From Allacma fusca (lineage: Eukaryota > Arthropoda > Collembola > Symphypleona > Sminthuridae): DNA of 64,000 nucleotides. Positions 2,733 through 51,237 of the stretch are shown in pieces. The DNA lies in the NCBI GenBank assembly GCA_947179485.1, contig OX359249.1, positions 36,070,250 through 36,134,249 on the forward strand. The letters are read 5' to 3'. The notes beneath the pieces are model-generated. The model was not told the origin of the DNA, made no database searches, and saw only the letters and a program-made list of their open reading frames with translations. Position 1 is the stretch's first letter; every line of letters begins with the position of its first letter. The translations under genes were made by a program, and so were the position numbers.

Positions 2733-4497
2733 TAACTTACTTCTAAGATTGACAGTGGGATTAAATTTAAATCTCTCCTTCAACTTTTGTGCAAACTTTT
2801 CCAACGATCATAATCAATCTTCGCAGCACATTTTCGACACAAGTAATCAAATTAAAGCACACACATAATTACATACACATACGAGTCAACTTTCTAGTAA
2901 TTCCTACAAATTAACAGGAATTCCCGGTATTTAAAAACACTCGAAATCATTCCATACTTTAGTTTGAGCATTATATACAGCTCCGTCCCTCCTCCTCCTC
3001 CTCCTTAGTCAACTTGATCGCTGAGATATTAATGTTTTCAAATCTGTCACGGCAATGCAGATGTATGCACATCCCAAACTTACTTACGAGCCCCTGTCAG
3101 CTGGATATATCGGCAGCACTTCCAGATAAGCATCTTCACTTGTGTTCATTGGCATTTCCCTATCACTCTTTATCCGTCACTCCATCTCACATGCACCTAC
3201 TTGTGTAAAACCTCCTTTGATTAGTTTTTTTTCCTGAGGATGTAACCCTGCTCCTCTTCCATGCTGATTAAATCTGAGCCGATAGCCACATTAATAATTA
3301 TCTGCAGCACTCTCCTCCTTCAAAATAACATTCATTTTTCTTTGTCAATAACAAAGATGTACGCAGGGGCAGAAAACTGAAGCTTTTTTGAAGGAAAACA
3401 CGGGAAAATGAACAAGCGTGCCCTAAATATTTGATAGTATGGATGTTGGAGGATAAATCATGGAATGTTGTTTACCGAATAAAATACAAATAATACACCA
3501 AAGCGTAGGAGATTTTCCTTTAACTGATTTCATTCCTGGGGCCCATTTCCTCCTTATGCTTGGGTTTTTTTTTTCTCTCGCATCTTTTCCCACTTTTCCT
3601 TCCACGGTCATTTAAAATGTAAGAGCGGAAACTATTGTGTAATCAAGCCACGTTTTCCAGTTGAAACTTTGCAATTCTCGAAGCGTCAAACGAATGTAAG
3701 GAAATGCATGTATATGTGTGAAATTATTTGTGTTTTGAAGTGGATGCCGCTAGCCTGACCTGCCTAAAAGACAAGAGGCAAAGAGAGAGAGAGCATACAT
3801 ACAGAACGTACGAAACAGAAGGTTCATGTGTGAAAAATTCAGCGTAAGGAAAGCGCTTGGCTATTCTTTTGATGATACTTCACACGATTTGTGCTCAAAG
3901 ACATGATACGTGAGCTTCAAGCCAATGTTTGCCCATTGATTTCCACATACTTGGAAAATAATATAAGTAGGTTTTAATACATACTTGTACAACTGGAATG
4001 TAGCGGCAGTTGTTTCTGCCTGCGTTCATAGCAAAAGGGTTTTTTTCTAATATGCAGGTAAAAGGGGTTTTTTTTTTTCGTACGTGCTGTGGTCCATGAC
4101 GAATGAAAAACCCCGAGGTAGCACAGTACGGGGAAACATGTGCTAAAGCTCTGAATCAATAAACGTGGTAAGATAGATACTTATATTTATGAAATTATGT
4201 ATGTAATTATGCCATGTCATTGGTCATGCAAATTTAGTTTCACATTGATCAAGCGTGTCAAGTGCGTACATTGTTTAACAACTTTTATTACAATCAGCAG
4301 GATACCAAAAGATAAACCCTGTACTAAACACGTATCTATATTCCAATTGTTTCAGAGGATTCCTCGTACTGAAAAAGTCTAAACATGATTTCTTCATTGT
4401 GCAAGCAGGAGACGTAATGTTAAACATACGTTGATACAGTTAGGCTGAACGTAACATGTGATTACAGAATTATTCTTTTGATGGTAATTGAACCTTG

Positions 4498-4519
4498 GTG
4501 AGTGAGTGAGTGAGTGAGT
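4498..4519. repeat. GTGA tetranucleotide microsatellite
   Basis: About five uninterrupted tandem copies of GTGA, ending in GTAG. It is an ordinary simple repeat. Confidence 0.85.
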
Positions 4520-7285
4520 AGCGTGGATGTGTAAAAGTCAAAGTTTCAAAAGGGTGTTTCTATATGTACTCATACACAATGGGAATATGAGTCAGTAGGT
4601 AATAAGGAGAGGAGCACTCGAGCAGGTGCATTTTGTTATCCTACCCATAAGTCAGCCATAAACTACGGAATGTACATACAAGCAAACAAACAAACAAGCA
4701 TGCACCCAAGGTATGAGCTGCAGGGGTTGGAAGATCCACTGGATGAGGATGAACTACAAGGTAACAAAAAAAGACTGAAAATGATTTTTGTCAAGGTTGA
4801 GCAGACCCTTGGGCAGATTTTTAATTTGAGCATTTAACTCAACGGCCACAATTTTTGCATTTCCATCGCCCAGTTTAAAAAGGATCTTTCAAATGAAACC
4901 TTAAGCCCTTTTCACATAGGGAGTGATTTTAGCAATCCGCCTAGTGACTACGGTTTTTGATACTCCTGCTCCTGTGAGAGGAAGTTACTTAGCTATTGCT
5001 TGCTTTGAGAAAAACCAGTCCTTGATGGAGGAGCTGGCTACGTTGCTACTCAATTTGCAAAATAACTCCTATTATTTTCTTACTGCTGAATGGGATTCAA
5101 CTAGTCATATCATCTTAATCCGGCTTCATGTCCTTATTAATCCTTGATCTTATATTCCTGACACTTAATTTTATACAACATTTTTAACTTCTGTATTCCG
5201 GATATTTTCCCCCCTTGATGACATGTATTCCGGTCATTTGGAGAAGCACAGGTGTAAACGATTTGTTCAAGTGGGTGGGAAGTGGGTTTCTCAAGAAGGA
5301 AATCCAACCAAAAAACTTGTAGGTCGTCATGTGTAAACTGACACTTACAGGGGAAACGTAAACATGCGTGTACATTAACGAACTGACAATTAGCTGGGAG
5401 TTCCCCCAAAATGCCATAAATGACATTTTTACAAACATGATTTTTGTGAATCAATCTGTATTCTAAATGCTGTAGCTCCTAAAATTTTTTTTTTAAACCC
5501 CTCTAGAATTTCCTTGTTTCATAAGCCTACGACAGTATTTGTATTCAAGGAATTCCTTCTCATCCCATTGTTCATAAAATATCTTGGAGGAAGAAAAATA
5601 TGTAAATCCCTTTCTACTGTAGCTGTATCATAAATCCTAGACATTTTCAAGAAAAATGTGCCACGAGTAATCCCATAATTAGACATGAAACGCTAATTAA
5701 TTATGTCAGTTTATTTAAATACACAAATAAACTCACTCTAACGCTTTTGTCAATCATCCCTTTTTCAGTTAATGTTTTGGGAAAAGTGAGAAAGTTTGGA
5801 GGAAGTGTGCTCGCATGTTGGCTTCGAGGTTTCCTTTCTTGACTGCCATTGCCAGTAAATGTAATTAATTTGAGGCTTGTTGTGATTATTCATTTCTGTC
5901 ACTACTCTAATGGGTGGAAGGATGTGTTTATTAGGGTGCTTTTTTTTTAAGAAAGACGAACTTTCGTCACGCAATGGAAACAATAATGATAATTATACTG
6001 TAACCATACATATCCTCAGATTTAAGTTACTCTGTCCAACCCAGAAATCCATGACAGTTCCCAACTTATCAAGTTCCACCGCAATAAGTGAGAATGAGAC
6101 TTGTTGGGGATTCAATAGAAAACCCCGTAATCGCGCAACATCCCCATTCACAGATTGATACTTGAATGTGTAACAGACACAGAAGTAAACAATTTATGAT
6201 TTGAAAAGTTTCAAACCAAAATACAAAGAGTGAGACCGCAAAGAAAAACAAATTGAAAGTTTTTCAAGAATGTGCTCTCCTCCAATATCAACGCATTGTT
6301 TCTTGTTCTGGTATCTTCTGCGTAATCCCGTTGGCGGGCCCATAGCCCCTGCAGTATGCATGGAATCACTTCCCAACATCCCAACTGTAACCAACCCACT
6401 TTAAAAGTCATTTAAAATACAAAAGTATTGATGCGGCCAAGTTGGTTTTACCTGACTGAATTTCTTATATTCTCTCACTGCGGTGACGACTAACCAAAGC
6501 ACAGATTTCAAAACGGAGTGTCCAAATTCCTTCCACAAGAGAAGGAATCCATTGTTGCTTCAGACTTTTTAAACTCAATTTAGATAGCTAAAAGGATATT
6601 AATATAGTCCAGAGAGCTGTATGAGTAATGACATGAAAAATACATAAGAGAATTATGCAGTAGAGAAATATCTTCCCAGAGCAACTCATTTAGTTGCTGC
6701 TAATGCCACAACAGCCTATGCAAAACACTTGTAAGTATTCACGGCATTGTTTGATATTCTAATTATAGCTGAAAGTGCTGAAGCTAACTACGTTTTAGAA
6801 ATGACATGAGATCCCATACTGGCCTCATGCTGAATATCTCATGCATACCTAAGGACGTGACAGTAGCAAGAATTTCAGGAACGGTTTCAGGGTACGACTG
6901 ACGGAAAGGAAAAGTTGGAGCGGAGGGTTGGAGATCAAAATGGCAGTGTAGCCTTTCCCCCCCACTATCGGGAGAGCTCTGACTTGTGTAATAGAAGGTT
7001 GGATTAGAAGCCAGGAGACTGCTTACGATCCCGTGTTTTTGTTCTGAATAAGCCTAAACGACAGTATATCATGTGCTGGAAATTAATTTGTCACTAATGA
7101 TCTACACTATTTCAAGAATGAGAGGGCTACAGTCTCACATAATGACATTTTATGACTGCTCATGTGAGCACCTCGTATACAGATTGCAAGTCTCCCCACA
7201 CTAGTGCTCCAACAAGATTATTTCCATTTGAGGTGGCATTTATTAGAAGATGCAGTGACACTTGAGATCAATACTCAGTCCTGGA

Positions 7286-35886: not shown

Positions 35887-37710
35887 CTAGTAGCGCTTCG
35901 ACGCTCCTTGGCGTGCAAGTTTGTCGGCTTGCTCGTTTCCGGGGTCACCTTGGTGACCTCGAACATGTTCCTGATGAACATCAAATGCATCATTTTTATT
36001 GCACGATTAAAACTTCAAAATAAATCAAATGACTCATTCTTTTATTACTTCATCAAAAGTGGGGTTGAGAAAAAATGAGGATAGTGACAGGTGGTACGTA
36101 AGGAGAGGGGGGATGTGCTTACATAAATGAATCATTCTCAAGTCCAAAATCAGAGCTTAAATTCATTGAATTTTGGTGACGGTGTTATTAATATAGGGAG
36201 CTTCTTGCTCTGCTTGCTATAGGAGGGATCGCTCAAAATATGATGAAGGAAAAAAGAATGACCCCTGGTAGCAAATTGATGAGGTTATATGGATTATAGA
36301 CAAAATACTTGTCCTAGATCACGAAAATCGAAACCAATCAATTGAGTTGCTAAATCTAATTTAAATCCGTATCTGTGAGGAGATGCAGCATGGTTTTAAC
36401 GAGCAAAATTAGCATGTAAAATGTTTTGGTACTTACAAAGCGAACTTCTACTCCTTCTCTGGCTTCGTTAAGGCGCTCAAAATCTTCTCGATTTTCGACT
36501 GGGCCACCATTCGACTTTGTCCAACCATTTGTTTTCCATTTATCCATCCATTCGTTAGCAGCTTTCACCAAAAATTCAGAATCCGTTTTAATCGTGATTT
36601 TAGAGAAACCTATAATATGAATTACAAGAAGTCACTTTTACTTACAAAATAACAGTCACTATGAATATTAAGGAAAAATATATTCAAAAACCTCTGGAGT
36701 TAATGATGTCTATATCTATTCATCCTATATATCATTCGCACTCTTTTCCAAAATAACTTTACTAACTTACTTAATAACATTACTTTTGCGTAAACATAAA
36801 GTGTACTTAACATGGTCCTTTGCAATTCGAATGGCACGTTCGGCTGCTTGAATTTCTGCTGTGTTATTTGTCTGCCTTCCTTCGGCCGGCTCAGAAAAGT
36901 CCCTACGGAAAATTATTAACTACTATATAAACAACTCACAATTTAATATAATTATTTTTCCAAGAAATGGTAATGAATTTACAATTTAGGATTGTCTGGA
37001 AAATGTCCTCCAATACCAGCCTGAGCTCCTGCCTGCCCATTGTTAGAACAAGCCCCATCAGTGTACACTACAACGGACGGGTCCGGGTCACTGCCGTTGC
37101 CATCTTCAGTGTGAAATTCAATGGACCGGTCCGGGTCACTATCATTGCTATCACCATTGTGAATTTTAAAGGATTGGTCAGGGTCACTATCGTTGCTATC
37201 ACCGTTGTGAACTTCAAAGGATTGGTCCGGGTCACTGTCGTTGCCATCATCAGTGTAAGCTTCAATGGATCGGTCCTGGTCACTACCGTTGCCATCATCA
37301 GTGTAAACTTCAATGGATTGGTCCTGATCACTGTCGTTACCATCATCAGTGTAAACTTCAATGAACCCGTCCGGGTCATTATCATCGCCGTCAGTGGCGT
37401 CGGAGTACATTGCAATGAGCCCCTCCGGGTCATTATAGTTGCCGTCAGTGCACATGTCATTAAACCCCTCCGGGTCATTATCGTTGCCTTCGGTGTACAT
37501 TTCAATGAAGCCCTCCGGGTCATTACCGTTGCCGTCGGAGTACATTTCAATAAAGCCCTCCGGGTCATTGTCGTTGTCGTCGGTGTACATTTCAATGAAC
37601 CCCTCCGGGTCATAATCGTTGCCGTCGGCGTACATTTCAATGAACCCGCCCGGGTCACAGTCGTTGTAGTAGTCGTTGGAATTGTCCGAGTTGCCTTCTT
37701 GGTATGACAT
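35887..37710 (-). CDS. RNase H1-type protein with acidic N-terminal repeat array; intron 2 donor damaged
   Basis: Exons by analogy with the sister gene: 36983-37710, 36811-36902, 36437-36609, 35887-35970 (358 residues if spliced at the ancestral sites). Residues 1-207 are a start peptide plus about twelve acidic repeats. The RNase H fold begins at DPDPSVVVYTDGACSNN, with its first catalytic Asp near residue 218. The other catalytic residues are kept: Glu in NNTAEIQAAE, Asp in IKTDSEFL, and His and Asp in VRGHQG and NEQADKL. RNase H cuts the RNA strand of RNA-DNA hybrids. Odd point: the exon 2 donor, G|GTAAGT in the sister, reads G|TTAAGT here. The GT one base earlier (CAT|GTTAAG) would shift exon 3 out of frame, and a strong GTAAGT 37 bases into the intron leads to a stop just after the junction. 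The gene may be a recent pseudogene, may make a truncated acidic protein, or may contain a sequence error. Confidence 0.72.
37090..37656 (-). repeat. Coding minisatellite: about 12 acidic 15-18-residue repeats
   Basis: Tandem units in exon 1 of RNase H copy A. Six distal units follow DPEGFIEMYTDDNDN (15 residues, one enlarged to 18) and six proximal units follow DPDQSIEVYTDDGNDS (16 residues). The following native RNase H sequence, DPDPSVVVYTDGACSNN, has the same pattern, so the units look like copies of beta strand 1 with its YTDG motif. All length changes are multiples of three bases. The opposite strand is also open over most of this span as a by-product. Confidence 0.9.
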
Positions 37711-40503: not shown

Positions 40504-40771
40504 TAGGGTACGTTCCAAAAAATCATAATACATTCATAGGTACCATTCCACAAAAATCATTATTCATACTTAGGTACCATTCCACAAAAATCACTATGCA
40601 TACTTAGGTACCATTCCACAAAAATCACTATGCATACTTAGGTACCATTCCACAAAAATCACTATGCATACTTAGGTACCATTCCACAAAAATCACTATG
40701 CATACTTAGGTACCATTCCACAAAAATCACTATGCATACTTAGGTACCATTCCACAAAACTCATAATACAT
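40504..40771. repeat. 34-bp minisatellite, about 8 units
   Basis: Units begin AGGTACCATTCCACAAAAAT at 40538, 40572, 40606, 40640, 40674, 40708 and 40742. A degenerate unit starts at 40504 and a shortened one ends near 40771. The central units are identical, which points to recent amplification, while the edge units are diverged. Each unit holds the palindrome GGTACC, and the central ones also hold ATGCAT. It is directly tandem without unique spacers, so it is not a CRISPR array. Confidence 0.95.
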
Positions 40772-44863: not shown

Positions 44864-45804
44864 TTAGTAGCGCCTGCTCGCTCCTTGGCGAGCAAGTTTA
44901 TCAGCTTGCTCATTTCCGGGGTTACCTTGGTGACCTCGAACGTGTTCCTGATGAACATAAAATGCAATTATTGTCATTAATACACGATTAAAATTCCATA
45001 ACAGAACAAATAATATCTAGTTAAGTATAAATTGGGTGCGGGGGAAGCACTTGTCCTCCAATGTTATCAAAATTATGCGGTCAAAGCCGTACATCAGGGA
45101 TGTTAAATCATACCCAAACCCTGCCTTTATGATGAAAAGAACTCGACAAATTGACATGTGAAATGCTTTAAATAATTTTGGAGCTTACAAAGCGGACATC
45201 CATTCCTTCTCTGGCTCTGTCCAGTCGTTGAAAATCCTCTCGATTTTTTACTGGGCCCCCATCAGCCTTTGTCCAACCCTTCGACTTCCAATTACCCATC
45301 CATTCGTTAGCAGCTTTCGTCAAAAATTCCGAATCTGTTTTAACCTTTACTCCAGAGTAGCCTGCAAACCAAGTGACACATGTTAGGGCGTTTATGCTTT
45401 GCGTCCAATCCATTATTAGTACTCATTAGTAGTAAATGCAGTACTTTTAAAGTACTCTTGTCGAATTTATTTGTTATGACCACTAATTCCACAAACAGAA
45501 GTATACTTACCATGTTCCTTTGCTCTCTCAATGGCTTCTGCGGCAGCTTGAATTTCTGCTGAGTTGTTCGTCTGTCTCCCTGCGGCTGGTTTAGAAAAGT
45601 CCCTACGGAAAAATATTAGTTACTATATAAACATCATACAATTAATAGAAATTATTTTTTCAAGAAATGACACTGAATTTACATTCTAGGATTGTCTGGA
45701 AAATGTCCTCCAATGCCCGCTTGAGCTCCTTCTCGTCCATTGTTAGGACAAGCCCCGTCAGTGTACACTTCAATGGAACGGTTGCCTTGACCTCGGCTTG
45801 CCAT
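44864..45804 (-). CDS. Ribonuclease H1 domain protein, intact, 156 residues
   Basis: Exons 45683-45804, 45511-45602, 45189-45361 and 44864-44947 join in frame to 156 residues, about the size of a minimal bacterial-type RNase HI. The product begins MASRGQGNRSIEVYTDGACP. Catalytic positions expected in RNase H1 are present: Asp16 (YTDGAC), Glu57 (NNSAEI), Asp81 (KTDSEF), His135 (VRGHQG) and Asp145 (NEQADKL). The basic handle region lies around NWKSKGWTK. The usual eukaryotic N-terminal hybrid-binding domain and a clear mitochondrial signal are absent. The enzyme degrades RNA in RNA-DNA hybrids such as R-loops and primers. Three introns argue for a cellular gene rather than a fresh retroelement fragment. 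It is the unexpanded sister of the gene at 35,887-37,710, and its intron 2 donor (CATG|GTAAGT) is intact. An unseen upstream exon could add a targeting sequence. Confidence 0.9.
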
Positions 45805-49777: not shown

Positions 49778-51040
49778 TTACAAAACTCCAATTGTCTCTT
49801 TCTTGACATCCCAAACATGAAATAAATGGCTGTCGAAGTAACATGATGCAATGGTGAAGGATTTATCGTCTTGATTTACTCGGATATCAAATCCGTAAGC
49901 TAAAGGACCCAAGTGTTCATTGCAAGAAAGCACTACTCCTGAAGACCAATCTGTAGTATTGATGCGGACAATGTGAATTCCATTTCGAGCACAGGCCGCC
50001 CCAATAATTAAATACTCATCTTGTTCTTCGGATGAATTTCCCGGAAGAAAAACTTTTTCAGGAATCCAAATAGTTCTCCACACCGCCCCGCCCAAATTGA
50101 TTACAGTCTTCATAGTTAAAGTTGGTTTCATCTCACCAGCAACTTGGGAGTACACTCGAAGATTGTCATCATAGCTACGTGTACAAACGTAAAACATTCC
50201 AGCATTAATGACATGAAACATCTGAATTGAACTGAAGCGATACCTCACAAAATCTTAAAAATACAACAAAAATGCAATTCCTTACCAACCAACTGCAAGA
50301 TAGTCCTTGTAAGTCGTTATAGAGGTAACACCGACGTCAAATTTTTTTACTACATGCTTCGCGCTGGTATTGATATCTTTTGAGTAAAACGCGAAAAATT
50401 TCCCATCGTCGGCCCCAGAGTATATAGTATCGGTTCTAGAATCATAGTGAATGACCCAAACTAAGTATTCGTGAAACTTTTTAGACTCCATGCAGACTAA
50501 GCTGTCGCTATCTGTCAATCCATAGATTTGGACGCTTCCGCCAGAATCTCCGATCAGAACTCTGTTCGGTCTGATCCATTCAATGTATAGTGCCATGATG
50601 TTATCCTCCAAGATGACCTCTTTATGCTTTTCTAAAATTGGAAGCCCATTTTCAAAATCGAGACGAAATATGGTAATTGAGCTAGATGTAGCAACTCCCA
50701 ACAAATTTTCTTCAAGCGGTTCCCACTTCAAGTCTAAAACGCCAGAAGTACTGACTTCTTCTAGTACTGACGTTACATATTCATGTTCCCCACTTTCCCT
50801 ATCCCCATTCGGTTTCAGTACAAGTAGGTAAACTCTGCCCACCCTGTTGGAGCTATTGCCGGCATCCAGTTGGTAAGCACCGATGGCCACGACCCATCGT
50901 AACTTCCGACACCAAGCGACACAGTCAACTTGCATGGGAAGAACTGTCTCAACTAAAGTTGTGTAACCATAGGCACAATCACTGCTACTTTGAGCCTCAT
51001 CTCCCTGTCCGTCACCGTAGACTAAACTTCGGCCGTTCAT
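49778..51040 (-). CDS. DPH7: Diphthine methyltransferase/methylesterase homologue, WD40 protein
   Basis: Exons 50286-51040 and 49778-50174 join in phase 2 to 383 residues. DPH7 family proteins are WD40 propellers that remove the methyl ester from the diphthine intermediate on elongation factor 2, allowing the final amidation of diphthamide. Family-like blocks appear in order: VDCVAWCRKLRWVVAIGAYQ (38-57), VLDLKWEP (101-108), the YSGADDGKF strand (207-215), LAVGCYDDNLRVY (248-260), GGAVWRTIWIP (280-290), IIGAACARNGIHIV (308-321) and ASCYFDSHLFHVWDV (361-375). The acceptor at CACGTAG|CTATGATG was chosen because it restores the GxYDD motif; an earlier AG would insert about 25 extra residues there. 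The start has an in-frame stop shortly upstream. The gene lies 197 bp after CDK2AP on the same strand. Confidence 0.88.
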
Positions 51041-51237
51041 TTTGGCCCAATTAAATTATTAACTACGCACCACTCGCAAAACTTATCAAGTCTAGAAATC
51101 TAAGTTTTCAAGAAACACACTAAAACCGTAATCAAAATTATCATTGGTAAACAAAGATCGAAATAGTTTTCAAACAAGAAAAACAGTAGTCCACAACGTA
51201 ATCTGAGTGTAAAAACATAGATAAAATTCAGCTGTAA

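Follow-up and report, generated by a model that had tools for sequence, protein, structure and literature searches.

A coding minisatellite probably seeded by the catalytic strand of an RNase H1 duplicate in the springtail Allacma fusca

Coding minisatellites, or exonic VNTRs, consist of tandem units inside an exon with lengths in multiples of three, as exemplified by the zinc-finger array of Prdm9 and the 48-bp repeat of DRD4. The gene described here has units of this kind in its first exon, but it differs from these two in that the array appears to have been seeded by the catalytic strand of the same enzyme, while the copies no longer form that domain. It shares the domain and the active-site residues with eukaryotic RNase H1 (RNASEH1; human catalytic domain, 2qk9). 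In contrast to full-length RNASEH1, it has no Cauli_VI domain detected in exon 1, carries an acidic array there and has an altered intron-2 donor. A third comparison is with the D/E-rich autoinhibitory tails, such as that of HMGB1, in which, according to a published account (PMC10250230), a large negative charge lies beside a nucleic-acid-binding domain, as it does in the array gene. Compared to the HMGB1-type tails described there, the array is periodic, has a hydrophobic strand-like core and is N-terminal. In literature searches covering few subscription journals, nothing was found on RNase H1 with an acidic repeat, on RNase H1 in springtails, on RNASEH1 duplication in arthropods, or on RNase H1 with three catalytic residue numbers; the query for ribonuclease H1 with tandem repeats and an N-terminal extension returned only yeast PIF1 helicases.

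The tandem pair and its paralogs

The window, i.e. the whole stretch of 64,000 nucleotides analyzed, contains a tandem pair of RNase H1 genes, both short and domain-only, on chromosome X1 of Allacma fusca: the array gene and, 8 kb away, an unexpanded duplicate, the sister gene (45804-44864), which has an identical four-exon layout (Table 1). The exons were located by tblastn, with one exon-3 query having three wrong leading residues, and the exon-1 donor of the array gene (AATT/GTAAAT) aligns with that of the sister (GAAT/GTAAAT). The genome searched comprised 392.74 Mb in 91 contigs. The published assembly description (PMC10427803) gives 392.8 Mb in 95 scaffolds and states that the sequenced animal was a single male, males being X1X2/00; on that account the array locus should be a single haploid copy.

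Table 1. Features of the array gene and the sister gene (window positions)
Feature	Positions	Strand	Basis
Array gene exon 1: 18-aa leader, 12 units, native beta-1, start of RNase H domain	36983..37710	-	translation; donor alignment
Units 1-6, 45-bp type, e.g. DPEGFIEMYTDDNDN; unit 6 is 54 bp	37378..37656	-	unit lengths, TRF
Units 7-12, 48-bp type, e.g. DQDQSIEVYTDDGNGS	37090..37377	-	unit lengths, TRF
Native strand beta-1 with catalytic Asp (SVVVYTDGAC...) and remainder of exon 1	36985..37077	-	tblastn with sister exon 1, 78% identical
Array gene exon 2 (catalytic Glu, AEIQ)	36811..36902	-	tblastn; end placed by sister's donor position
Array gene intron-2 donor position, CATG/TTAAGT vs CATG/GTAAGT in sister	36805..36810	-	splice-site comparison
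Array gene exon 3 (catalytic Asp, KTDS)	36437..36609	-	tblastn; acceptor position
Array gene exon 4 (His and last catalytic Asp, GHQG / EQAD; stop codon)	35887..35970	-	tblastn; sequence
Exon 1 of the sister gene, lacking the array; no sequence nearer to the units than its strand 1 was found	45683..45804	-	sequence comparison
Sister gene exons 2-4 (45511-45602, 45189-45361, 44864-44947)	44864..45602	-	tblastn; splice sites

Intron 1 of the array gene (36905-36984) is 80% identical, without gaps, to that of the sister (45605-45684), whereas introns 2 and 3 align poorly; the likeness of intron 1 is possibly the product of gene conversion at the 5' end. Between both RNase H genes lies a 34-bp tandem repeat (40513-40763; 7.4 copies, 96% matches). 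A WD40-type gene on the minus strand (49778-51055), which we take to be possibly that of a DPH7-like protein, gave WD40-type Pfam matches below the cut-offs in one of its two exon pieces.

A genome search with the sister protein (the query carrying one superfluous R between exons 1 and 2) yielded 28 exon matches, which were grouped into at least 11 RNase H1 genes. This count is a lower bound, with 30 candidates scored and the 119 RNase_H matches of the genome not sorted singly. The array is absent from the first exons of the sister and of the nine paralogs outside the window (L038-L046); since all 10 other genes found lack it, it is a derived feature of one copy, and the original prediction, which took the sister exon 1 at 45804 as the ancestral state, is borne out. 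One of the paralogs (L041, C12:55.25 Mb) carries the hybrid-binding domain (Cauli_VI, Pfam) and is the canonical RNase H1 gene.

The expansion of RNase H1 to at least 11 genes comprises the window pair and the nine paralogs on C5, C8, C10 and C12, with the four-exon layout largely common. The first exons of the other paralogs look domain-only; the Pfam scan covered the L041 exon, the array gene and the sister. In L044 (C12:15468000-15477500, about 4174-5720), none of the four catalytic carboxylates nor the His seems to be retained (presumably D10N, E48Q, D70N, D134M and H124N in E. coli numbering), the exon pieces are stop-free, the domain is strongly basic with a charge of +13.1 and exon 4 was placed by a weak match (E 0.054). 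This gene looks like a pseudoenzyme, and its product may bind hybrids without cutting them. L046 (C12:14511500-14521000) has His in place of the last catalytic Asp and a GC donor at intron 2. Active-site scoring of L042, L043 and L045 covered all but the last exon, leaving the His and the last Asp unscored; these genes show NKQAD or NKEAD motifs.

Composition and origin of the array

Translation of exon 1 gives the 242-residue product originally predicted, with 12 tandem units before the RNase H1 domain: a leader of 18 aa (MSYQEGNSDNSNDYYNDC), the units, and then the native strand (DPDPSVVVYTDGACSNN). Units 1 to 5 are 45 bp, unit 6 is 54 bp and units 7 to 12 are 48 bp in length, with pairwise identities of 53-91%. 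Tandem Repeats Finder reported a period of 48 at 37056-37383 (81% matches) and a period of 45 at 37398-37657 (85% matches), both with 0% indels. The array thus consists of tandem units of 10-100 bp within an open frame, as expected of a coding minisatellite. Leader and array together (207 residues) contain 64 D/E and 3 K/R, giving a charge of -61.2 at pH 7; the D/E residues are interspersed with others and form no consecutive run. At the position equivalent to the catalytic Asp of strand 1, the residue is D in 8 units, E in 2 and G in 2. AlphaFold2, run on exon 1 alone with no alignment, predicted a low-confidence strand of 5-8 residues in 11 of the 12 units (mean pLDDT 45.8), a model too weak for claiming either disorder or a beta fold.

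It had also been proposed that all indels are multiples of three and that the frame was therefore kept. The length differences are indeed multiples of three, but they comprise only two kinds of length change, and the second half of the proposal is further weakened by the pN/pS values among the units, which were 0.46 against a neutral median of 0.79 (P 0.08) and 0.54 against 0.86 (P 0.05) under a simple star-shaped null, with the 9-nt insert of unit 6 left out. Being below the neutral median, these values hint at weak constraint rather than full neutrality. The openness of the frame is itself weak evidence, since two other long open frames exist, one of 251 aa on the opposite strand and one of 219 aa in a second frame of the minus strand.

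The only Pfam domain returned for the array was DUF7369 (22.9 against a cut-off of 27 bits, best stretch 15 residues), which was taken as chance. A PDB search with the array part (the query having P for Q in the first unit) matched a chain of SAKeCEref, presumably a designed protein, at E 0.0018, and this was taken as an effect of composition. The DxDxD spacing of the array recalls the calcium repeats of the EF-hand, RTX and thrombospondin-3 types, but none of these is supported by a family match. A search of phage records gave no match at E 1e-5.

The source of the units was sought by aligning each of them to 297 kb (both strands counted), made up of the window with the array masked and the nine paralog loci. 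The sister exon-1 region was the best place for 7 units (1, 2, 4, 7, 8, 9 and 12) and ranked third for unit 3; it was outside the five best places for units 5, 6, 10 and 11. When compared with dinucleotide shuffles against sister exon 1, 7 of the 12 units were reached by 0 of 2000 shuffles and units 3, 5 and 6 by 1, 7 and 17, respectively, whereas units 10 and 11 were reached by 122 and 652 and have no clear match to strand 1. Unit 8 shares 19 of 20 nt with the sister strand, and the 48-bp consensus, composed by eye, shares 23 of 25. Over a 24-nt core, 10 units are nearer to the sister strand than to the gene's own, and units 10 and 11 are equally near to both; the IE of the sister strand corresponds to VV in the gene's own. 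In none of the units does the linker half clearly match strand 1.

A 20-base core (TCCATTGAAGTNTACACTGANG) was then matched against 393 Mb. Exact matches lie at two places, in unit 8 and in strand 1 of the sister; allowing one mismatch adds two further places, both of them array units; and with two mismatches there are six, namely unit 12, the array gene's own strand 1 and four elsewhere. Up to three mismatches there were 61 places, compared to 63 for a reversed control pattern, so that only the closest matches carry weight. As the pattern was composed from unit and sister sequences, its exact matches exist by construction, and the result lies in the absence of others. In searches of the whole genome, the array DNA matched itself alone (very common words being skipped), and the array protein likewise, apart from one match at E 1.35. 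The derivation of the units from the strand-1 segment of the RNase H1 gene itself, as first proposed, is thus well supported at the sequence level, with the shuffle test, the best places and the genome-wide core matches in agreement, and the closer unrelated acidic repeat that would have spoken against it was not found by either the DNA or the protein search.

The RNase H domain and the intron-2 donor

The active-site residues D, E, D, H and D are kept in both the array copy and the sister. The Pfam RNase_H scores are 135.5 bits for the array copy (its exons linked by an X where the junction is altered) and 132.2 for the sister, against a cut-off of 25.8, and the nearest solved relative of the sister is human RNase H1 (2qk9). 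A Pfam scan confined to exon 1 of the array gene gave no match to the Cauli_VI hybrid-binding domain. Neither a stop nor a frameshift is found in the array or in exons 2 to 4, although for the domain the absence of stops is by itself weak (P 0.18-0.31). The domain charge of the array copy, -3.2, is the lowest of the 8 springtail domains scored, three partial ones being omitted, and the next is -2.5.

Between the array gene and the sister, dN is 0.14 and dS 0.50 over 139 codons, and the ratio is 0.29 over 146 codons. When changes were polarized with L038, non-synonymous and synonymous changes numbered 15 and 11 on the array branch, 21 and 16 on the sister branch, and 5 and 8 among those unresolved. 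Overall, 41 of 76 changes are non-synonymous, compared to a neutral expectation of 74% (P = 1e-4); the corresponding values are P 0.016 for the sister branch and P = 0.05 for the array branch (15 of 26). The pairwise ratio shows that the divergence of the domain exons took place under purifying selection, with the array branch taken alone being borderline. Constraint thus acted on the domain and is at most weak on the array itself. In the protein tree the domain branch of the array copy is 0.029, compared to 0.31 for the sister, and at the 35 sites where the two differ, the array copy agrees better with four paralogs at 15 and the sister at 8; both observations fit continued function better than decay. 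The tree leaves the fork with the two genes open (81/83), and the pair at C12:16.7 Mb falls within it as well; that the array gene and its neighbour are sisters is therefore concluded from position, layout and low DNA divergence, not from the tree.

Besides exons 2 to 4, the original prediction lacked the change at the donor of intron 2 (36810), which reads TT in the array gene, compared to GT in 9 of the 10 other genes and GC in L046. A full-length enzyme therefore cannot be assumed; the gene may be losing a splice site, and the full-length enzyme may no longer be made. A shift by one base gives a GT but the wrong frame (phase 0, where 1 is needed). Splicing to the full domain would need a weak in-frame donor: the GT sites 36783 (adding 9 residues), 36795 and 36837 preserve the frame across exon 3 when the usual acceptor is used, and all of them are weak. 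The score of 36783 is 3.2, compared to 11.4 for the sister site, in a scoring set of 26 sites of which we judge three, those for the exon-1 donors of L042-L044, to be wrongly placed at the first GT; 36795 and 36837 have scores only from a faulty table with misplaced training sites. Among the downstream donors with better scores, 36770 does not keep the frame (phase 2) and 36645 comes after an in-frame TAA. The donor of intron 1 in L045 seems to be GTAATG, and as 36783 has the identical six bases, its use is not absurd.

Readings of the locus

We consider it probable that the array is a coding minisatellite seeded by the catalytic strand in an RNase H1 duplicate, that its product is a tolerated acidic tail and that the donor was later lost. 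A stretch around the start of beta-1 (SIEVYTD) with a short acidic linker would have been tandemly duplicated in one copy, presumably by slippage or unequal crossing-over, and would then have grown into 12 units. The protein, if made, would bear at its N-terminus some 207 residues of tail, charged at about -61, before an otherwise standard RNase H1 domain. This tail would most likely be flexible, near-neutral and tolerated, and any electrostatic influence on the binding of nucleic acid would be modest at most. With the intron-2 donor lost afterwards, the present product could be either the full-length protein with 9 additional residues, made via a weak cryptic donor, or one truncated after the first helix. 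Counted against this explanation are units 10 and 11, which have no clear match to strand 1, and units 5 and 6, for which the sister is outside the five best places. Further points against it are the pN/pS values below the neutral medians, the short domain branch and the paralog agreement of the array copy, the lack of a supported pairing of the two genes in the tree, and the parity of core and control pattern at three mismatches. Units 10 and 11, together with the linker halves, would also be expected if an unrelated acidic repeat had converged on strand 1 or been inserted beside it, but this is very improbable, as the only exact genomic matches of the core are unit 8 and the sister strand 1 and the genome searches, with very common words skipped at the DNA level, found no other similar repeat. 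An error of assembly in the array or at the donor is extremely improbable: tandem arrays in general are prone to misassembly, but these units are diverged (53-91% identical) and hence easy to place, and the assembly description (PMC10427803) reports a HiFi assembly of QV 58.7 and a male karyotype under which this chromosome should be haploid.

A reading somewhat unlikely in our judgement is that the gene is freshly dead, the loss of the donor having ended the enzyme and the array being a relic or a symptom of relaxed constraint. It would account for the TT donor where the 10 other genes found have GT or GC and for the lack of a good replacement among the donors nearby, but exons 2 to 4 and the array are without stop or frameshift (an absence that alone carries little weight), the share of non-synonymous changes on the array lineage lies under the neutral one at borderline significance, and the bases of 36783 are apparently used as a donor in L045. 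A regulatory role of the array, by autoinhibition or nucleic-acid mimicry, is possible. That it is a selected regulatory tail, i.e. an acidic mimic of nucleic acid competing with RNA/DNA hybrid for the active-site face or a device tuning substrate search in the manner of HMGB1, is unlikely. The large negative charge, the weak constraint among units, the conserved domain next to the array and the most negative domain charge among those scored are consistent with it, although that charge is near the value of the array-free paralog L039 (-2.5). Negatively charged disordered regions can autoinhibit and can speed target search, but the D/E repeats described in that source (PMC10250230) are consecutive runs, which the array does not have. 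It is quite doubtful that the self-copied strands form an acidic, strand-forming array acting in cis, as spare or decoy first strands in competition for completing the RNase H sheet or as a nucleic-acid mimic gating the active site.

The coding minisatellite favored here belongs to a kind already known, with a seed that is unusually well traced: the repeat can be followed back to one particular structural element of its own enzyme, and the unexpanded duplicate at a distance of 8 kb serves as a control. Should the array be expressed, the locus would make it possible to test directly whether a nuclease can be regulated by an acidic repeat derived from itself; should it not be, the locus would be an example of repeat expansion and splice-site loss combining in a duplicated gene.
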